Shown here: positions 3,970 to 25,965 of the stretch, piece after piece
Numbering within the stretch: position 1 is the first letter of the stretch
Layout: each line of letters starts with the position of its first letter
The notes under the pieces: generated by a model
Databases searched by the model: none
Told to the model about the DNA's origin: nothing
What the model saw: only the letters and a program-made list of their open reading frames with translations
Program-made: the position numbers and the translations under genes
Source: a virus
Virus record (IMG/VR): IMGVR_UViG_3300025120_000479
Coordinates: 1 to 25,965 of that record
Length of the DNA: 25,965 nucleotides
Strand: one strand, 5' to 3'

Positions 3970-5291
3970 TGGCTGAACAACCGGGCGCTATTAGACAATA
4001 CGTTAAAAACGTAGAGGGCGAAATTAGAGGGGTTGGTAATTACCCTGCAGGACTACGAGACCAATATTCGCGAGAGTCAGCCGCTGGAATAGATACCAAT
4101 TATTATTATTACAATGACGGTAAAAGAAATACCGGTGAGCGTATTGTTAAGCCACGGCTTAGACCTATTCCAACATTTGTTGAGCTTGTGCAAATGGAGA
4201 AGCTAGAGAGGTTGCAGCTGTACGCCGGTGCGGGCATGACCGCCTCGCAAATGACAGCTGCGGCTAACAACTTTGACAACGTACGCAAAGAAAAAGCGTT
4301 GAAGGTATTGGTTGACCAAGCGTTTGCTGGAAAGGTCAGCGAGCTTGTGCCAGTTATCCAAGCGGGCAATGTTGATAAACTACGCGACAATAACGGCGTG
4401 TATAATTCTGTGACGTACTTGCACAGTATTGGAATGCCTTACAGAGACATTGCTACTGAATTGCAAAAGCGAGAGATGGCAGAACTAAATTACCAAGAGG
4501 CGTTGGAAAGACAGAGCAACGCAAAAGCTGAAAAAACCGAAACAAAGCTTACCGGCGATGCGACCCTCGCAATGCTTGCGGGCGATGACGGTGCCTTCGC
4601 CGCGGCAGTCAACCAAATAGCTTTGACAGACAAAAACAAAGCAGCGGACTTGGAAAAGCAATATGCTGAAGCGGGCAACGACCGGCTGACCAGTGATTCA
4701 GGAGCCATAGACTTCTTAGACGGCAAGGGCATTGAATTGTCTTATGCAGATGTGTTTAGCCAACTTCTTAAATTAAGCGATGCCGACAAAAAAAAATATT
4801 CGGATATTGTAAAAACATATGAGAGCGATGAGTTCACCGCCGCAAAAACAATTATTGCTGGCCAAATGAAAATATCAGTTCGCATACAAGACATGGCGGC
4901 TGATGATAAGAACCTAGCCCGGCATGGCATATTCAGACAAATTATAGGTGAACTCCAATTGCGAAAGGTTATGGCCGCAAGAAATAATGAAAACTTTGAC
5001 GCGATAGAAGTGGGCAACGCTCTGGTGAAACAAATGTTTACTGAGCATCAGGCTATAGAGTTCCAAGAAGACAAGAACTCGGCGCGGAGCATTTTAGGCG
5101 CAGTAAATAGCGACGAACTGAAGGGCACTGACAACCAACTTGACCTTGATGATTTTGCAGGGGCACAAACATATTTTGAAAGTGTTTTAACCAGCCTCAA
5201 AGACGGCGATAGGGTGGGAAGGTTTAAACCAAACGACATTCAACTTGTTGAAATGTACATTAACGCAATGAAAAAGGCGCAAGGGCAATGA
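3969..5291 (+). CDS. Internal virion protein, C-terminal half or separate ORF (gp15-like region)
   Basis: 440 residues, hydrophilic and strongly helical, with Lys/Asp/Glu-rich stretches and no membrane segment or recognisable enzymatic motif. By position, between the gp14-like and larger ejected proteins, it belongs to the capsid inner core. An ATG overlaps the previous stop (TAATG), so it could be translated alone by coupling. The reading frame is also entered by a -1 slip at the seven-G run at 3957-3963, adding Glu-Leu before the Met. The ORF is visibly more A/T-rich at third positions than the genes on either side (runs such as tattattattacaatg near 4100), which suggests a different history. 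It ends by ATGA overlap with the next gene. Confidence 0.65.
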   Translation: MAEQPGAIRQYVKNVEGEIRGVGNYPAGLRDQYSRESAAGIDTNYYYYNDGKRNTGERIVKPRLRPIPTFVELVQMEKLERLQLYAGAGMTASQMTAAANNFDNVRKEKALKVLVDQAFAGKVSELVPVIQAGNVDKLRDNNGVYNSVTYLHSIGMPYRDIATELQKREMAELNYQEALERQSNAKAEKTETKLTGDATLAMLAGDDGAFAAAVNQIALTDKNKAADLEKQYAEAGNDRLTSDSGAIDFLDGKGIELSYADVFSQLLKLSDADKKKYSDIVKTYESDEFTAAKTIIAGQMKISVRIQDMAADDKNLARHGIFRQIIGELQLRKVMAARNNENFDAIEVGNALVKQMFTEHQAIEFQEDKNSARSILGAVNSDELKGTDNQLDLDDFAGAQTYFESVLTSLKDGDRVGRFKPNDIQLVEMYINAMKKAQGQ

Positions 5292-7309
5292 GCGAACTAT
5301 TCAACGCCCGCGAACAGTCACACGCGACTAGGCAGCAAGTGGGCCACAAGGTCTATATCACCGGCAAAGGCGCATCCTACACCCCGCCACCGCCACCGCC
5401 TGGTCTTCTTAGCAAAGCTGGTGAGGTTGCAATGTCTGCCGGTGAGGCTGTGGTTGATGCAGCAATGGACCCGGTTGGAACTGCAAAAGCAACTGGCAGG
5501 GCCGTGGCTGGGGGTCTGCGCGATTTCTCCCAAGGCGTCATTGACCTCAGTTCAGAACTTGGTGGCATGATTGAGACAAACGTGGGCAGCTTGGGCTATC
5601 TCAACGTGGATGAGAACGGCGTAAATTGGAGCAAAGAACCGCCCGCCGGTGCCCAGCCAGGACAGCTTGGCGATTTACCTGATGTGCCAAAAGGCGATAG
5701 CATGGCCGAGGGCTTTGCGCGGGGGCTAGTTCAGTTCGCGGCGGGCATGGCAGCGGCCCCGGTTCGCGGTGCGGGCATGGGCGCAAATATGCTGCGTTCT
5801 GGTTTTGCTGATGCTTTGCTGAACCCAGAAGAGGGTAACCTGTCATCATTGCTCAAAGGCATGGGTTTAGACTACGCCGTCTTGGATTACTTAGACAGCA
5901 AAGTTGACAGCGATGCAGGGCCAGAGGAACGACTAAAGGCGCGGATATTGCAAGCGGTTGAAGGCACAGCCATCGGCGTTCCAATCGATGTGGTCATGTA
6001 CGGGTTTCGCCTCATACGGTCTAACAAGGAAGCGGTCGAGGCAGTAAAAGAAACACTGGCTCAAGCACCACCGCCAACTGATACGCAAGTTATGCCTAGC
6101 CAATCGTTCTTTGATAAGGCGGGTGAAGCAACTGACAGGTTTGTTACTCAGGCCGCAACTACAACAGATGAAGTGGCAACAAGTGCCGCCCGCGCAACTG
6201 ATGAATTTGTATCACCGACCGCGCAGCCACCAGCGGGTCAGGCTGTAACTGGTGACCTTAGCAAACAGATAGATGAGGCGAGAGCCGCTTACGAGGCGTC
6301 ACCGAATGACCCCCAGCTACGCCTAGACTATTTTGATTTACGCAAGCAACGCGATGCTGACCCTGTTGCACAAGTCCAGCCGCCCACTGACGCAGAACCG
6401 GGCATCATTGCGTTTCACGGTTCGGCGGCTGACTTTGACCAGTTTCGGCTTGAAAAGATTGGCACCGGCGAAGGGGCGCAAGCGTATGGCTATGGGCTTT
6501 ACTTTGCTGACAAAGAGGCCATTGCAGACTTCTACCGTGGCGCATTAACTGACGCACCATTTGACTATAAGATTGACGGGCAGTCTGTCAGTGAGATGTA
6601 TCGCAATGCCGTCTATGCTGAGAATTACGAACTTGCGGACGTACTTGAACAAGTGCAATTGCATGACACGCCTAAGACAATAAAGGCGAAGTTCACAGTC
6701 GAGAACGGCTATACCCAAGAGACTGCCGACTTCGTTGCTGACCTTGATTATGACAAACTGACAGGCGTTGATGTTGATGGCAAAGAGATACCGCTTGGCC
6801 GCATATACAAAGTTGGTTTGACGCCCAAGCCAGATGACTTGCTTGACTATGACAAGCCGCTAAGTTCTCAGTCTAAGAACGTGCAAGCTGCATTTAAAAA
6901 GGTATTTTACGATAATTTTATAAAAGGTGATGCTGATTTAGAGGCGCTGTTTGCAAGCCCTAACGCATTATCAATGCAAGACATGGGCCTTTTCAACAAA
7001 AGCACAGGGGCACAGGCTTATAGGGAATTAGCTGACAGGCTTGGCAAAACAATAAGACCGGTGCCGCTTTCAGCGGATGGCACCATGATGCCAACTGAAC
7101 AAATAGCTTCAAATGCTTTGTTTGAAGCTGGCATTCCCGGCATCAAATACCTTGACGGGAACTCCCGTAACTCTGGGGCGGGTTCAACAAACTACGTCAT
7201 ATTTGATGACAGCATGATTAAGATTTTAGAGAAATACGGCATTGTCGGGCCTGTCGCCATATCGGCAGCGGCGGCGTCAAAAGGCGGGCAAAAGGATGAC
7301 GAGACATGA
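5288..7309 (+). CDS. Internal virion protein with C-terminal polyvalent-type ADP-ribosyltransferase domain
   Basis: 673 residues. The N-terminal ~330 are Ala/Gly-rich and helical after a proline run (TPPPPPPG, about residues 32-39). A coiled, charged linker follows. From about residue 372 the protein matches the ART-PolyVal pattern: IIAFHGSAADFDQF (His377-Gly378), GTGEGAQAYGYGLYFAD (392-408), then EAGIPGIKYLDG (613-624), NYVIFDD and a C-terminal IKILEKYG. ADP-ribosyltransferases move ADP-ribose from NAD+ to target proteins. In phages and conjugative elements this domain sits on large proteins delivered to the recipient cell. The location among ejected core proteins fits delivery with the genome. 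Which residues complete the catalytic triad (His377, the Tyr400-405 segment, a later acidic or polar residue) cannot be fixed by eye. Both ends overlap neighbours by ATGA. Confidence 0.75.
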   Translation: MSELFNAREQSHATRQQVGHKVYITGKGASYTPPPPPPGLLSKAGEVAMSAGEAVVDAAMDPVGTAKATGRAVAGGLRDFSQGVIDLSSELGGMIETNVGSLGYLNVDENGVNWSKEPPAGAQPGQLGDLPDVPKGDSMAEGFARGLVQFAAGMAAAPVRGAGMGANMLRSGFADALLNPEEGNLSSLLKGMGLDYAVLDYLDSKVDSDAGPEERLKARILQAVEGTAIGVPIDVVMYGFRLIRSNKEAVEAVKETLAQAPPPTDTQVMPSQSFFDKAGEATDRFVTQAATTTDEVATSAARATDEFVSPTAQPPAGQAVTGDLSKQIDEARAAYEASPNDPQLRLDYFDLRKQRDADPVAQVQPPTDAEPGIIAFHGSAADFDQFRLEKIGTGEGAQAYGYGLYFADKEAIADFYRGALTDAPFDYKIDGQSVSEMYRNAVYAENYELADVLEQVQLHDTPKTIKAKFTVENGYTQETADFVADLDYDKLTGVDVDGKEIPLGRIYKVGLTPKPDDLLDYDKPLSSQSKNVQAAFKKVFYDNFIKGDADLEALFASPNALSMQDMGLFNKSTGAQAYRELADRLGKTIRPVPLSADGTMMPTEQIASNALFEAGIPGIKYLDGNSRNSGAGSTNYVIFDDSMIKILEKYGIVGPVAISAAAASKGGQKDDET

Positions 7310-17219: not shown

Positions 17220-17458
17220 AGGAACTTGATGGCCCGCGATTTACCGGGCAACCTTTCTATCCAGCCCCGCTCCTCAAGGCATCCTATTGTTCTGGCAATC
17301 TGACCGGGGTGACGCATGACAGTTGCCTTCTCACCGGCCACATAGCCAGCGCCCATTTCGCGCCAGGTTGGTGCAACGCCATGCACTTTGACGAACCGTT
17401 TTAGGAAGTCGTAGAACTCCCGCTGTTCAACCGTCAAGGTTACTTTACCGTCAGTCAT
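17216..17458 (-). CDS. LexA-like winged-helix DNA-binding protein
   Basis: 80 residues matching only the N-terminal DNA-binding domain of LexA: LTVEQREFYDFLKRFVKVHG, then APTWREMG, and ARTIGCLEERGWIERLPGKS ending RAIKFL. It lacks the C-terminal Ser-Lys autoprotease domain of LexA (about 200 residues), so it cannot self-cleave. It may compete at LexA-type operators or control the recombination operon. It starts inside the end of the RecT-type gene (eight-base overlap), being the last gene of the minus-strand recombination operon. Such small LexA-like helices are common near phage recombination genes. Confidence 0.7.
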   Translation of the reverse strand: MTDGKVTLTVEQREFYDFLKRFVKVHGVAPTWREMGAGYVAGEKATVMRHPGQIARTIGCLEERGWIERLPGKSRAIKFL

Positions 17459-18374
17459 CAGCGGCCTCTTTTTCTTCAGCGCCTAGACCGGCATTGTACT
17501 GCAGCCGCTTGTCGTGCAGTTCTTTGGCAAGGTCTTCATCAAGCATAGCAAACGTGTCAGCATTGGCCTCTTCCAAAGCCTTCATCTTTGTGCGCCTCTC
17601 GGCTTCCGGCAGTGACCGAGCGCGGCGAACCTTAAGCAACAGGTCATTGTAAGCATCAGCAAAGTCCATTTGCACAGTAAACGATTGCGGAGGCTTGCCA
17701 GGGATGCGAAGGGCGAACCCCTCAACCGGCTCTGGTGGAGCTTGTGGAACTTCCACAGCCTCTTGCGGCGGCTCAATTGCAGCCATTGCTCTCTCGGCTA
17801 TGGTCGGCCCTGACGGCGCTGGTTGGGGCTGTACGGGCTTCATTGGCGCGGGCATGTCCTGCGCTTCCTCGACACTAATTAACCCCTTTATCACATCGGG
17901 AAAGCCGTCACGTATAGCCAGCGACCTGGCCCGCATCTGGAGCATCCGCTGAGGGTACTGCTTCCAAGGCCCCTGCTTGCCCCACAGCCCTGCCCGCTTG
18001 GCGTCATCGACCGAGAACTTGCGCTCAATTTCTTCGACCTCACCGGCATTGTGCGACCGGGTGATAAGGCAAACGGCTGTCTCCCCGTCTAAGTATTCTT
18101 TCACGCCACGGCAGCGGTGGTCTGCCCTGACCATAGCCAGCAAGGCATCACCATAGATTGACGGCTTGCCATTGATGACGGCAATGTTCTGCAAGGCTTG
18201 CATTGGAGCCAGACCTAACTCCATGCCCCATTGGATTGCGACCAAGGTATTGGCGGGCTTGCCTTGATATTCACGGGGCACCATTGCGCTCTGGCTAAGA
18301 ACCTCACTAAACTGCATGGCCTCGGACAAGGTAGTCGGCACCAGACTATTGCGGGTGGTTACTGCGTTACTCAT
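17451..18374 (-). CDS. recT: RecT-family single-strand annealing protein
   Basis: 307 residues. The core at about 14-175 matches the RecT family: REYQGKPANTLVAIQWGMEL (34-53), GLAPMQALQNIAVINGKPSI (54-73), YGDALLAMVR (74-83) and RMLQMRARSLAIRDGFPDVI (143-162). It anneals complementary single-stranded DNA during phage recombination and usually works with a 5'-3' exonuclease, here encoded directly upstream and overlapping by eight bases. The C-terminal tail from about 175 is Pro-rich and then charged and acidic (EEKEAADD at the end), as in relatives, where it may bind SSB or regulate annealing. Family assignment is confident. The host partner and role in replication are inferred. Confidence 0.85.
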   Translation of the reverse strand: MSNAVTTRNSLVPTTLSEAMQFSEVLSQSAMVPREYQGKPANTLVAIQWGMELGLAPMQALQNIAVINGKPSIYGDALLAMVRADHRCRGVKEYLDGETAVCLITRSHNAGEVEEIERKFSVDDAKRAGLWGKQGPWKQYPQRMLQMRARSLAIRDGFPDVIKGLISVEEAQDMPAPMKPVQPQPAPSGPTIAERAMAAIEPPQEAVEVPQAPPEPVEGFALRIPGKPPQSFTVQMDFADAYNDLLLKVRRARSLPEAERRTKMKALEEANADTFAMLDEDLAKELHDKRLQYNAGLGAEEKEAADD

Positions 18375-19302
18375 TATTCAATTCCTTCACAGAAAATTTT
18401 AGGGTCTCGGTGTAGTCCTCGGTCTCAACCATTTTTTTCTTTGGCTTGCGGACGAATTCGCTTTTGATGCGGTAGCCATTGACATCAACAACCTTGATGC
18501 CAGCGTCATACATCTTATCAACCAACTCGTTCTTTATGTCCTCGCGCTCACGCTCAACCTCGCGCACCCTCGCCCGCGCTAGTGCGACCTCGGCACTTTT
18601 CTCAACGTAACCATTGGCCATGCCAGGGATGTCCGCATTCGTATCCCAGCCTTCCGGCCAGCAAACTGCAATGACATCATCGGGGTCACGGTCAGGCGGG
18701 TACTCGCCGTCATTGTCAACCAAGTCCCAAAACTCAGCGTACTTGTCTTTCATCATATCGATGCGATGGGTTGACCGTTCGACCGGGTACAGGTGCAGTT
18801 TAAAATCTTGGTCAAAGCAACCAATGATGCCCCAGTTTATGTCAGCGCAATACATTTGATGTAGAACTTGGTAAGTCCATTCAGGCTTGGGCCGACCGTG
18901 ATGGTAACGGTCCGACTTTATCTCACACACGCCGGTGCCCGACATGGTCACCTCTTCGCCATCACCATTGACCAGTGTAATAGGGTCAGCCAACTTTAGA
19001 ATGCGGTCAATGCTTGCCGCTGCCCTTGGCTTTTGAAACGGTTCAGTCGGCTCCCACATCTCGCAAGGCTTCTCACACATGCGGTTGATTCGGCTCTCCA
19101 CCATCCCGGCAATCGCTGGCTCCAAATGGTTGCCGCGCTCAAAGGCCCACTTGTATGGTTGCTCTAAGGTTTCGACCCCCGCCTTCGCCAGCTTGTGCGC
19201 CTCAAGCACTTCATGCCGGGTCTGGAATGCGGTTGCGCCCATGATGATAGCCCCTGCCTCAGAGCTACCAATCTCATATCCTGTACGTGTTAACTTTGGC
19301 AT
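18367..19302 (-). CDS. YqaJ-type viral exonuclease (PD-(D/E)xK)
   Basis: 311 residues with the YqaJ/lambda-exonuclease pattern: IGSSEAGAIIMG (11-22), FERGNHLEP (54-62, Glu61), AAASIDRIL (94-102, Asp99), VCEIKSD (125-131, the E-x-K core Glu127 and Lys129) and WTYQVLHQMY (142-151, Gln145). It would digest 5' ends of linear double-stranded DNA to expose 3' single strands for the RecT-like partner. The C-terminal half has a long charged helical stretch (ARARVREVEREREDIKNELV). Its ATG overlaps the stop of the upstream membrane protein gene (TGATG), and it overlaps recT downstream, so the three are coupled. Confidence 0.85.
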   Translation of the reverse strand: MPKLTRTGYEIGSSEAGAIIMGATAFQTRHEVLEAHKLAKAGVETLEQPYKWAFERGNHLEPAIAGMVESRINRMCEKPCEMWEPTEPFQKPRAAASIDRILKLADPITLVNGDGEEVTMSGTGVCEIKSDRYHHGRPKPEWTYQVLHQMYCADINWGIIGCFDQDFKLHLYPVERSTHRIDMMKDKYAEFWDLVDNDGEYPPDRDPDDVIAVCWPEGWDTNADIPGMANGYVEKSAEVALARARVREVEREREDIKNELVDKMYDAGIKVVDVNGYRIKSEFVRKPKKKMVETEDYTETLKFSVKELNNE

Positions 19303-19608: not shown

Positions 19609-20694
19609 TTAATTAGAGTTGGAAGTTCCAACCCCTGTCTGCTCACTATTTGATATTGATAACGCCCTCCTTTTGTCAAACATTTTAATATAGCGACTCG
19701 CCTCAACCAGCGTTGAGTGACCCAACCAGGACATAATGGCTGTGGCTGACCCGTTGTTGGCCGCAATCTCCATGTCTCTGCTTTTTCTAAGGCCGTGCGC
19801 TGTTTTGCCTTGAACGCCCGCCGCCGATGCCTGTCGGCTAAACCATGACGATGCGCCTTTGACTGCACGGCTCTTTGCGTTGCCGCTGTTGGCGAACCCG
19901 CCGGTGACAATGTAGGTCATATGCTTGTCAGCTTGCGCCTCAATTGCTTTGTGCAATAGGTCTAGGTCGCGCTTAAAAGATTGTGCAAAGTGCGGCAATT
20001 CACGGTCAAAAGGTATCTCGACCAAGGTGCCTGTCTTTGACCGCCGGTATGACAGCCAGCCACCGGGGCGTATGCAGCCTGGTCCAAGCCTGACAGCGTC
20101 CACCATCGATGCGCCGGTGTAGTACAACAACTCAAACGCCATGCGCGGATGCGTGTTCAAAGCATGATGATTGCGGAACATCTCAACGTCATTGTGGTCC
20201 CACGGTATATGCCCATCAGACTTTACGACAGGCGCACGAACCATATCCTTGCTGGGGTCTACTTTCAGCGCATCAATGTGCATGAGATACTTACAGAACC
20301 CGCGCCACATTTTTAACTGCGTGTGCTGTGCGTGGCCGTGATAGTTTTTTAAATCAGCGCGGATAACGTCCGGCGTCAATGCTTTCTCAGAACCAGCGGT
20401 CTCCCTGATGCGTTCTAGGGCACGGCGGCGTACACCTTGGGTCAAGGGTGCCATTGTCGTAAAGTGCGAACTGGCGATATACTTGCTGACGGCAGCGGCC
20501 AAGCTGCCCTTGATGATTGGCCGTACAGGCTCGACGCCCGCCGCCTCAGTATAAGCTTTGAGAAACACAACAGACCCCATTGGTGCGTCAGGCATCGGGA
20601 TGCCCTTCTGCCCTACAGGCCGGTAATACCAACGCGGGTTACCTGACTTGTACTCGCCGGAGCGGTTCAGATGTTTAAGTCGTATTCCCCGCAT
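19609..20694 (-). CDS. Tyrosine recombinase / integrase with atypical active site
   Basis: 361 residues, normal for phage integrases. An N-terminal arm and SAM-like domain (1-~155) precedes the catalytic domain. Visible active-site elements are the beta-hairpin lysine YRRSKTGT (Lys220), HGLR (His300, Arg303), GHST (His326) and ASRYIK with nucleophile Tyr335. The first catalytic Arg, usually in TGxR near this point, is absent: the segment reads YYTGASMVDAVRLG (191-204), with Ser196 and Met197 where Arg is expected. Only Arg202 is near. The enzyme would integrate and, with the upstream excisionase-like protein, excise the phage. It overlaps that gene by 28 bases. Whether it is active is open. 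Confidence 0.85.
   Translation of the reverse strand: MRGIRLKHLNRSGEYKSGNPRWYYRPVGQKGIPMPDAPMGSVVFLKAYTEAAGVEPVRPIIKGSLAAAVSKYIASSHFTTMAPLTQGVRRRALERIRETAGSEKALTPDVIRADLKNYHGHAQHTQLKMWRGFCKYLMHIDALKVDPSKDMVRAPVVKSDGHIPWDHNDVEMFRNHHALNTHPRMAFELLYYTGASMVDAVRLGPGCIRPGGWLSYRRSKTGTLVEIPFDRELPHFAQSFKRDLDLLHKAIEAQADKHMTYIVTGGFANSGNAKSRAVKGASSWFSRQASAAGVQGKTAHGLRKSRDMEIAANNGSATAIMSWLGHSTLVEASRYIKMFDKRRALSISNSEQTGVGTSNSN
19618..19632. repeat. Palindrome GTTGGAA-G-TTCCAAC at the integrase 3' end
   Basis: Two perfect 7-bp arms around one central base, within the last codons of the integrase gene. The half-site GTTGGAA is shared with the two 12-mers at 19421 and 19467 and approximately with 19597-19607, so this may be part of an integrase arm-site or operator array. 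Confidence 0.4.
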
Positions 20695-21201: not shown

Positions 21202-21996
21202 TTACTTATTGGAACTTATGACCCCAGCTTTGATGAGACGTTTGACATAGTTGCGGGTGCTAGACGCATGCCATTTAAATGCTTTGAGCGTGTCAGGGTC
21301 GGCCGCTTTACGTGGCGTCAAGATACCTATTTTGTTAAGTTCTGACGCCATTTCGCGGTACGACATGTCTTGCTTTACAAAGGCTTTGAACAGGTTCTCA
21401 AGCTGGGTTGCATACACCAGCGCCTTGCGAGCATTTGCGGCGTTACCAGCCAGAGATGCCTCTGTTGTATCGGTCGCGCCGAGCTTGCTGATGGTGCGGC
21501 CAGACTTTGTGACATAGCTGCCCTTCTCTGCAATCTCAGCTTGGATGCGGGCCAAAGACATTTTGGTACGCTGTTTAATAACTTTGCGCTCTTGGTCTGC
21601 AAACATGATGCGGAACTTAAGGCTCGTTTCATCCAAGGAAGGGTTATCAAGCACAACGAACTTGATGTTGCCGGTGCTGACCGATTTGTCCAAGAAGCGC
21701 AAGACTTCCCAATCTTTACGCGCCAAGCGTGACAAACTGTAGACCACCATAGTCGCGCCTTGCTTCTCAGCATAGGCCATACAGTCTTTGAGGCCGTGGC
21801 GCATATCCCAAGGTGTACCTGATGAACACTCATCTTCAAACCATTCGACCGTGTAGTCACCACCATTGAGGTAAGCCTTGATTGCGGCCCGCTGGTTCTC
21901 ATTGTCTTGCTTGTCAGTGGACACACGCACATAGGCCGCGAACTTTCCCGTGTGCATTGCACCGTGGTCAGGTCTAGTTTCAATCAAGCCGGTCAT
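21202..21996 (-). CDS. Serine recombinase (resolvase/invertase family)
   Basis: 264 residues. The resolvase domain begins FAAYVRVSTDKQDNENQRAA, with Arg24 and nucleophile Ser26, and continues with FEDECSSG, GATMVVYSLSRLARKDWEVL (the S-x-x-R-x-x-R helix) and ERKVIKQRTKMSLARIQAEI (long E helix). The C-terminal part has the short recombinase or HTH region with ILTPRKA and STRNYVKRLIK. This size fits resolvase or invertase enzymes rather than the ~450-600 residue large serine integrases. GGGAG lies eight bases before the ATG. Together with the tyrosine integrase it gives this element two site-specific recombinases. It could resolve multimers, invert a segment, or be the real integrase. It is transcribed away from the RHH gene. 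Confidence 0.85.
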   Translation of the reverse strand: MTGLIETRPDHGAMHTGKFAAYVRVSTDKQDNENQRAAIKAYLNGGDYTVEWFEDECSSGTPWDMRHGLKDCMAYAEKQGATMVVYSLSRLARKDWEVLRFLDKSVSTGNIKFVVLDNPSLDETSLKFRIMFADQERKVIKQRTKMSLARIQAEIAEKGSYVTKSGRTISKLGATDTTEASLAGNAANARKALVYATQLENLFKAFVKQDMSYREMASELNKIGILTPRKAADPDTLKAFKWHASSTRNYVKRLIKAGVISSNK

Positions 21997-24607: not shown

Positions 24608-24801
24608 GCAGCGCCACAAATGAAGCCATGAAGATATGCCAGAAATGCGGGGGCACCGGCACCATACTGATAGAACTGTATCACCGGCAGTCTTTTGACG
24701 TTGATAGCGGATACATAGAGGAGCGGGTCGAGACCTGTACAGACTGTCTCGGCAGTGGTGAGCGCCTGACAGATGATGAGGATGACGAGGACGATGCGTA
24801 A
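24604..24801 (+). CDS. DnaJ-type zinc-finger small protein
   Basis: 65 residues, starting by ATGA overlap with the PP-loop gene. Two CxxCxGxG units, CQKCGGTG and CTDCLGSG, flank a beta-hairpin (ILIELYHRQSFDVDSGYIEE), as in one half of the DnaJ central zinc domain. An acidic tail (DDEDDEDD) follows. There is no J domain. Such mini-zinc-ribbon proteins are common in phages and probably bind one Zn2+. The internal ATG at 24628 is an alternative start. Operon placement suggests partnership with the PP-loop protein or the replication protein. Confidence 0.7.
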   Translation: MSSATNEAMKICQKCGGTGTILIELYHRQSFDVDSGYIEERVETCTDCLGSGERLTDDEDDEDDA

Positions 24802-25807
24802 GTCAGCCCTCAGTCCAGACCCAATAAGGGATGCGCCAGATGGCCACGGTGAGTACCAAGCACCCGGTCCATTCTGCCTCATACCGCCCAGAGCAACAGT
24901 GGACACACGCTTGCACAAATACGCCTCAACATTCGGTGTCCTCGCCTTCGTCTGCTCCTACGCCAAAGCACACACCGGCGTGTTCTTCATGAACCAACTC
25001 ACCGTAGCTGAAGCCATCGGCATCTCTCAGCAAGCAGTACACAAACACATGAAGAAGCTGGTCGAGTACGGCTACATTCAGAAGATACGCAAAGAAGATA
25101 ACAGAAGAGCATGGGGCAAAAGAGGCGCAGTCTGGAGGGTAATCTACGACCCCAGAATGTCACTGCAAGAGGTGCTGAACACCACACCAAAGACCGAGGA
25201 AGAACTCACAAGAGAGGCGCAAGATACAATGGCAGTAGCCAACCGAGGAGCCAAAGGACAGCTCACAAAGCAGCGTTCTAAGCCTGTGGATAAGTACGAT
25301 AGTCAACAACCTGCAGGTTGTAATAGTGATGAGGGCTATGTACGAAAAAACAACCTGCAGGTTGTACGAAAAAACAACCCGGAGGTTGTTAGTAGCTATA
25401 ACTTAGAACTAGAAGATAAGAATAGTATAAATGGTTTTGTTGAAGAAAGAAAGAAAAGCAAGTCTCACATGCCCACGCGCGCGCAAGGCGGTCATCAGCC
25501 TGAACGTGCATGTCGAGCCATCTGTGCAGCTTATGGTGTAGTATTCCAAGAGGCCACCGGGATACGCTGGCAGTACGATGACCGGCAGGTCTCAATAGCA
25601 GCGGCGGTGCTGAACATGGGATACACCGAGGACACGTTCATTGCAGACGCCACGGCAACAGCCGCATGGTTCATGTCTCAGGACAAGAAGCCACCTGTAT
25701 CGCTTGCATGGTTCACTCGTAAGGCTGAGAACAAGGCAGGGCACAAGACACCAGGGCCTGACATCAACGCCATTCTAGGCAAGGTCACGGGTGCTGCAAG
25801 ATGGTAG
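24794..25807 (+). CDS. Replication initiator-like protein with winged helix
   Basis: 337 residues from ATG 24794 (GAGG just upstream). In-frame ATGs at 24773, 24776 and 24782 are possible. The N-terminal half has a winged helix (TFGVLAFVCSYAKAHTGVFF, QLTVAEAIGISQQAVHKHMK, KLVEYGYIQKIRKED). A low-complexity charged linker carries the VRKNNxxV repeat coded by the iteron-like DNA. The C-terminal part (ERACRAICAAYGVVFQEATG, then WFMSQDKKPPVSLAWFTRKA) may bind host helicase or loader, as in lambda O and related initiators. Internal palindromic repeats followed by an A/T-rich stretch support an origin within the gene. It overlaps the PP-loop cluster upstream, and a truncated ORF begins in its last codons. 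Confidence 0.65.
   Translation: MRKSALSPDPIRDAPDGHGEYQAPGPFCLIPPRATVDTRLHKYASTFGVLAFVCSYAKAHTGVFFMNQLTVAEAIGISQQAVHKHMKKLVEYGYIQKIRKEDNRRAWGKRGAVWRVIYDPRMSLQEVLNTTPKTEEELTREAQDTMAVANRGAKGQLTKQRSKPVDKYDSQQPAGCNSDEGYVRKNNLQVVRKNNPEVVSSYNLELEDKNSINGFVEERKKSKSHMPTRAQGGHQPERACRAICAAYGVVFQEATGIRWQYDDRQVSIAAAVLNMGYTEDTFIADATATAAWFMSQDKKPPVSLAWFTRKAENKAGHKTPGPDINAILGKVTGAARW
25306..25321. repeat. Iteron-like palindrome copy 1
   Basis: ACAACCTGCAGGTTGT, a perfect 16-bp palindrome inside the initiator-like gene, preceded by TACGATAGTCA rather than the TACGAAAAA of the other copies. Confidence 0.6.
25341..25364. repeat. Iteron-like 24-bp unit copy 2
   Basis: TACGAAAAA followed by the same perfect palindrome (25350-25365). 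It forms a head-to-tail tandem with the next 24-bp unit. Confidence 0.65.
25365..25388. repeat. Iteron-like 24-bp unit copy 3
   Basis: TACGAAAAA then ACAACCCGGAGGTTGT (25374-25389), differing from the palindrome of copy 2 at two central bases. The A/T-rich stretch 25388-25460 follows directly. Confidence 0.6.
25388..25460. other. A/T-rich segment next to the iterons, possible unwinding element
   Basis: Strongly A/T- and purine-rich (TAGTATAAATGG, GAAGAAAGAAAGAAAA), unlike the flanking G/C-rich coding sequence. Placed directly after the three palindromic repeats, this is the arrangement of lambda-type origins within an initiator gene. The function is inferred. Confidence 0.4.
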
Positions 25808-25965
25808 TGTACAAACATCAATCGTTCCATTGGTATCTGTACAGGTCCACATTCCTGTGGTTTCTGGGGGTCAGCAACGCCACGTTTGCCGCTGGTCCTG
25901 ACCCACCGTTTTATACGGCGCGGCTGCGAGTGCGGGCCACGCCAAAAATCGGGCCTTGGGGGGGG
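25801..25965 (+). CDS. Truncated ORF at the window end, unknown
   Basis: Open from ATG 25801 (overlapping the previous stop by seven bases, with a GTG at 25807 as an alternative) to the last base, 55 codons with no stop. The start is MVVYKHQSFHWYLYRSTFLW and the later part is Pro/Arg-rich. No family can be assigned from this fragment. The last eight bases are all G, which may be an assembly or sequencing end effect, so the final residues are unreliable. Confidence 0.4.
   Translation, partial: MVVYKHQSFHWYLYRSTFLWFLGVSNATFAAGPDPPFYTARLRVRATPKIGPWGG

Follow-up and report, generated by a model that had tools for sequence, protein, structure and literature searches.

A marine phage in the IMG/VR collection, analysed here over its whole record of 25,965 bp (the window), very probably carries a lambda-type replication origin embedded within its own initiator gene. 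This reading draws on features evident at the sequence level, namely inverted repeats (dyads) in the middle of the gene, their upkeep as DNA across differing codon frames and peptides, the covariation of their half-sites with the predicted recognition helix of the encoded protein, and an A+T-rich tract adjoining the last repeat. These features are located as follows, with the basis of each assignment in brackets.

24773-25807, plus strand: initiator gene, 344 aa (ORF; HTH_36 match; PHROG replication-initiation or O-like matches; alignment A1)
24884-25147, plus strand: predicted winged-helix DNA-binding domain, residues 38-125 (AlphaFold2 model, pLDDT mostly 70-87; Pfam HTH matches)
25028-25069, plus strand: predicted recognition helix, residues 86-99 (AlphaFold2 model; covariation)
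25028-25030, 25031-25033 and 25043-25045, plus strand: Q86, Q87 and K91, respectively, the helix residues varying with the half-site (covariation)
25306-25321, no strand: dyad 1, ACAACC-TGCA-GGTTGT, read as QQPAGC (sequence)
25350-25365, no strand: dyad 2, ACAACC-TGCA-GGTTGT, read as NNLQVV (sequence)
25374-25389, no strand: dyad 3, ACAACC-CGGA-GGTTGT, read as NNPEVV (sequence)
25390-25464, no strand: A+T-rich tract, 72%, presumed unwinding element (composition; same place in 117 homologues)
25496-25738, plus strand: predicted helical C-terminal domain, residues 242-322 (AlphaFold2 model, pLDDT mostly 72-89)

The true start of the gene is probably the ATG at 24794 (MRKSALSPDP), a start kept in relatives. 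In a Pfam profile search the protein scored above the curated cut-off for HTH_36 (PF13730; 28.8 bits, cut-off 25), and the initiator of L053 reached 42 bits against the same family. The winged-helix part matched PHROGs 270, 391, 428, 345 and 678 (E 3e-7 to 2e-4), matches named replication initiation or O-like, with the likeness lying mainly over the N-terminal half of the initiator; all nine scanned members of the group of L053, given the working label freshwater-type, matched PHROGs 391, 270, 345 and 428. The AlphaFold2 model had a mean pLDDT of 58 and was therefore usable by domain only, and at that level it predicts a lambda-type plan of N-terminal DNA-binding domain, flexible linker and C-terminal domain, with the dyad codons (178-206) falling inside a stretch (163-241) predicted to be disordered. 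The C-terminal domain, which is of one type in window-like relatives and of another in freshwater-type ones, is presumed to be the partner-binding part. A PDB fold search returned generic winged-helix matches, none reaching E 0.001, and the Pfam lambda O N-terminal family, Phage_rep_O, did not figure among the 16 Pfam families listed for the window protein (E up to 0.1). An assignment to the iteron plasmid Rep proteins of the Rep_3 type was rejected, as Rep_3 was not among the Pfam families listed for the window initiator and the sites are inverted repeats within the gene, not direct repeats outside it.

Two perfect copies of the 16-bp palindrome ACAACCTGCAGGTTGT are present at 25306-25321 and 25350-25365, and a third copy, ACAACCCGGAGGTTGT (25374-25389), has two central bases changed and the six outer bases on each side intact, as an earlier note on this DNA had reported; dyads 2 and 3 lie, as it also stated, within 24-bp tandem units (25339-25362 and 25363-25386) that are 92% alike. 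The dyads are situated some 500-600 bp into the initiator gene, with a spacing of 44 bp from the first to the second and 24 bp from the second to the third. Because 44 is not divisible by three, the codon frame at site 1 differs from the one shared by sites 2 and 3, and the differing readings (QQPAGC as against NNLQVV and NNPEVV) therefore indicate that it is the DNA that has been kept and not the peptide. The VRKNNxxV peptide repeat described in the earlier note is accordingly found at sites 2 and 3 and fails at site 1, while its suggestion that DNA function may dominate over protein sequence is supported by homologues, which keep the dyads while the peptide, the codon frame and even the half-site letters change. 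Across the whole record, exact ACAACC-N4-GGTTGT occurs at these three positions only, and allowing up to two mismatches gave four matches, three of them the exact ones, against 1.4 expected from shuffling. Synonymous shuffling of the gene, which left protein and codon usage unaltered, produced three dyads sharing a half-site in 2 of 20,000 shuffles.

The A/T-rich stretch that had been claimed to follow the palindromes mid-gene was recovered, the 75 bp past the last dyad being 72% A+T, and the best 75-bp window at the tract (73% A+T) ranked fourth of 5,178 sampled across the record. Over 117 homologues, mean A+T is 69% in the 75 bp that follow the final dyad, compared with 47% gene-wide, and the A+T-richest 75-bp stretch of the ORF begins, at the median, +1 bp from where that dyad ends (quartiles -7 and 13); in two 33-kb contigs (G001 and G003) the tract is the A+T-richest 75 bp of the entire contig. 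GC skew, one of the checks proposed in the earlier note, was uninformative and gave no clear turn at the site, with a minimum approximately 2 kb before it in G001 and G003 and none there in G005 or the window.

Near relatives comprised twelve loci obtained by protein search, together with L021 obtained by alignment, and those with a complete region carry three dyads at identical offsets from the PVD codons (23, 67 and 91). The half-sites fall into an ACAACC version (the window, L001, L007 and L008), an ATAACC version with ATTACC in one arm of site 1 (L002, L003 and L004) and an ATTAGC/ATAAGC version (L005, L006, L009 and L021), with imperfect arms at some sites, for example in the ATWAGC class, and the recognition helices change in step, being ISQQAVHKH, ISQPAIAKH and ITQSAVSQH, respectively. 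The check proposed in the earlier note, namely whether homologues keep the repeats while the linker peptide varies, thus came out in favour of the DNA: number, offsets, symmetry and A+T tract are kept and the half-site shifts with the helix, and a search of the homologues for the reverse, a kept peptide with a lost palindrome, found the opposite. Between the window and L004, DNA identity is 88% in the N-terminal part, 82% in the HTH and 70% in the dyad region, as against 96% over the 183 bp that separate the HTH from the dyads and 93% in the C-terminal part. The HTH and dyads have therefore diverged jointly across nearly identical intervening DNA, for which an exchange of one block is no explanation. 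The C-terminal part recombines separately from helix and dyads, as seen in L008, whose class A dyads are joined to a C-terminal part closest to that of L006, and in L009 and L010, which combine class C dyads with a window-like C-terminal part.

More distant relatives were collected from IMG/VR by a pattern scan for pairs of ACAACC dyads separated by 2-32 bp and by two protein-homology scans, of which one found 121 relatives and the other 502, the top 80 being retained in each case; the homology scans were independent of the dyads, though one pattern of the 121-relative scan spanned the helix. The pattern scan returned 75 stretches, all of them within ORFs aligning with initiators of the window kind and with spacings mostly of 24, 36 or 48 bp, the cores being free. 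Relatives carry two or three dyads per gene, and helix class agreed with half-site class in 122/122 distinct initiators, and also in L222 and L268, under five motif classes that were defined partly on data also in this table:

QQ..K helix: ACAACC, 91/91
RQ..N helix: GGACAC (N6 spacer), 24/24
QS..Q helix: ATTAGC (class ATWAGC), 3/3
QP..K helix: ATAACC, 2/2
RQ..K and RQ..R helices: GCAACC, 2/2

A shuffled-motif control for the same table was weak, some shuffles recreating the motif or the register, and carries no weight. The spacer varies from 4 to 6 bp while the ACAACC half-site remains constant, being N4 in most, N5 with the helix VSQQAIGKQL and N6 with ITQQAVSKHL. The half-site opens with A where the second residue of the helix motif is Q and with G where it is R, and the simplest reading is that this residue would contact the opening base while residue 91 would contact the inner bases. 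A prediction was set before the last scan, that pairs of GCAACC-N6-GGTTGC would be accompanied by R as the second residue of the [ST]-x-Q motif, with K or R and not N farther along, and it held in 10 of 10 contigs, nine of them new and one (L279) being the contig of L268, seen before; the helices were VSRQAVQKQ (twice), ISRQAVTKQ, VTRQAVTKH (twice), VSRQAVGKQ (twice), ISRQAVSKQ, VTRQAIGKQ and VSRQAITKQ. Several RQ-helix genes at first seemed to be without dyads, and the five inspected closely carry imperfect dyads of the class predicted by their helix. A tree of the HTH region, built with the helix masked, shows 8 changes of helix class and 8 of motif, and independent pairs on supported branches agreed in 4 of 4 cases (p 0.125), short of significance because there were only four pairs. 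The weight of the covariation is in its freedom from exceptions and in the prospective result, rather than in the independent-pairs test.

In five related records, all two or three dyad copies were clustered. L045 and L061 each have one additional exact ACAACC-N4-GGTTGT 2,809 bp from the cluster. A class B pattern scan gave nothing beyond three family contigs already known and two unrelated matches (L106 and L108). Named phages yielded no relative of the window protein or of that of L080, and genome_contigs yielded no relative when searched with alignment A1 and one weak match, without convincing dyads, when searched with alignment A3 (L272, a Chloroflexi MAG contig).

Under the proposed mechanism, a dimer of the winged-helix protein would bind each dyad through its recognition helix, contacting two 6-bp half-sites separated by a 4-bp spacer; the twofold symmetry of the sites and their covariation with the helix both point that way. 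Three bound dimers would form a nucleoprotein complex that destabilises the neighbouring A+T tract, and host replication proteins, including a helicase, would be recruited by the C-terminal domain, so that replication would start at the dyads. Their placement in the codons of the disordered linker would put the DNA constraint where it is least costly to the protein. DnaB_C and IstB/DnaC-like genes had no match in eight records, some of them incomplete, and because no helicase or loader gene was found the recruitment step is without a named partner.

The same covariation would be given by dyads that serve as operators, at which the winged-helix protein represses or paces its own or downstream genes with the origin elsewhere, and MarR-type regulators have the same fold. 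The dyads lie some 500-600 bp into the gene, with no further copy in the record, the conserved A+T tract adjoins them, and the protein matches replication-initiation families, all of which make this alternative improbable, although an operator function could coexist with an origin. Still less probable is that the dyads form mRNA hairpins for attenuation, stability or translation control, with the arms kept for base pairing: the strand does fold well (-37.5 kcal/mol, z -5.5) and paired changes in both arms are also expected of a hairpin, but a hairpin has no need of one half-site common to all copies in a gene, nor of a half-site that tracks the recognition helix across distant relatives, and the arm mismatches ACAACA, ACAACG and AGTTGT are not pairable as G-U wobbles. 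That the palindrome is a coding by-product of a VRKNNxxV or HNxxVV peptide repeat kept for the protein is scarcely credible, given that the preponderance of one frame among exact ACAACC-N4 sites over the set (167/177, reading [HND]N[PL][QE]VV or similar) is set against 10 sites in another frame (QQPAGC as at window site 1, IQPEGC, LQPGGC and similar), the out-of-frame reading TTSRGC among relatives, the rarity of three dyads among the synonymous shuffles, the predicted disorder of the linker and relatives that alter the peptide and retain the symmetry.

An origin within the initiator gene has precedent in ori-lambda and the O protein of lambda, Stx phages, phi80 and 82, in which inverted-repeat iterons lie mid-O beside an A+T-rich neighbour and are bound by dimers of a protein with an N-terminal DNA-binding domain, a flexible linker and a C-terminal partner-binding domain (PMC7466680, PMC6022878). 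The resemblance to lambda O and its origin proposed in the earlier note holds for the inverted-repeat iterons in the middle of the initiator gene, the adjoining A+T tract and the predicted two-domain initiator with its linker. In contrast to the four iterons of lambda and the six of Stx phages, of 18-19 bp, the window family has two or three 6-N4/5/6-6 dyads of 16-18 bp, no DnaC- or IstB-like loader match was found in the eight records searched, some of them incomplete, and its initiator has no Phage_rep_O match among the families listed. The likeness appears to be one of layout, with kinship to lambda O limited to profile similarity. The nearest named phage by terminase is Methylophilales phage MEP301 (65.5%), whose gp55 is homologous to the freshwater-type initiators in its N-terminal part and has an HTH, but differs in being 201 aa long, in its helix (ITAPSVSRQ) and in being annotated as hypothetical; inverted repeats sought in and after the gp55 gene were not found. 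The replication genes listed in the MEP301 paper do not name gp55 (PMC8024684).

Several other features of the record were observed. A tyrosine integrase-like gene (Phage_integrase; 19609-20694, minus strand) and a serine recombinase/resolvase-like gene (21202-21996, minus strand) stand side by side, which is unusual for so small a phage, and a RecT-like annealing protein beside a YqaJ/RecE-like exonuclease (17451-19302, minus strand) makes up a recombination pair. A large ORF among the structural genes (5288-7309, plus strand) has a weak match, under the curated cut-off, to ART-PolyVal, the ADP-ribosyltransferase found in polyvalent proteins. A run of G (25930-25965) closes the record just after the initiator gene; in relatives a G/C-rich stretch follows at that point, with small-protein and terminase genes beyond it, and the record end therefore looks like an assembly break.

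An origin inside the initiator gene is already known from lambdoid phages, and so too is specificity that follows the initiator. The novel elements, as judged from the sequences compared, are the initiator family, its half-site classes with a variable spacer and a helix-to-iteron code that is free of exceptions in the sample; a literature search, largely without subscription journals, found no paper on this initiator family or its code. A more tentative proposition, held at somewhat less than even weight, is that the initiator together with its origin makes up a self-contained specificity cassette selected to diversify, in which the helix and all half-sites switch jointly, despite the conserved stretch between them, so that no origin type is shared by related phages in the same host, and that the code may be of sufficient generality for origin specificity to be predicted from sequence. 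For a large group of aquatic phages, most of them uncultivated, the analysis offers a predicted initiator together with its predicted origin; one IMG/VR scan returned 502 relatives. As protein and sites share one gene, each relative sequenced supplies a protein already matched to its sites, and recognition by this winged-helix family would therefore be decodable. The initiator gene further appears to record switches of origin specificity, as between the window and L004, so that how such specificity changes becomes testable.
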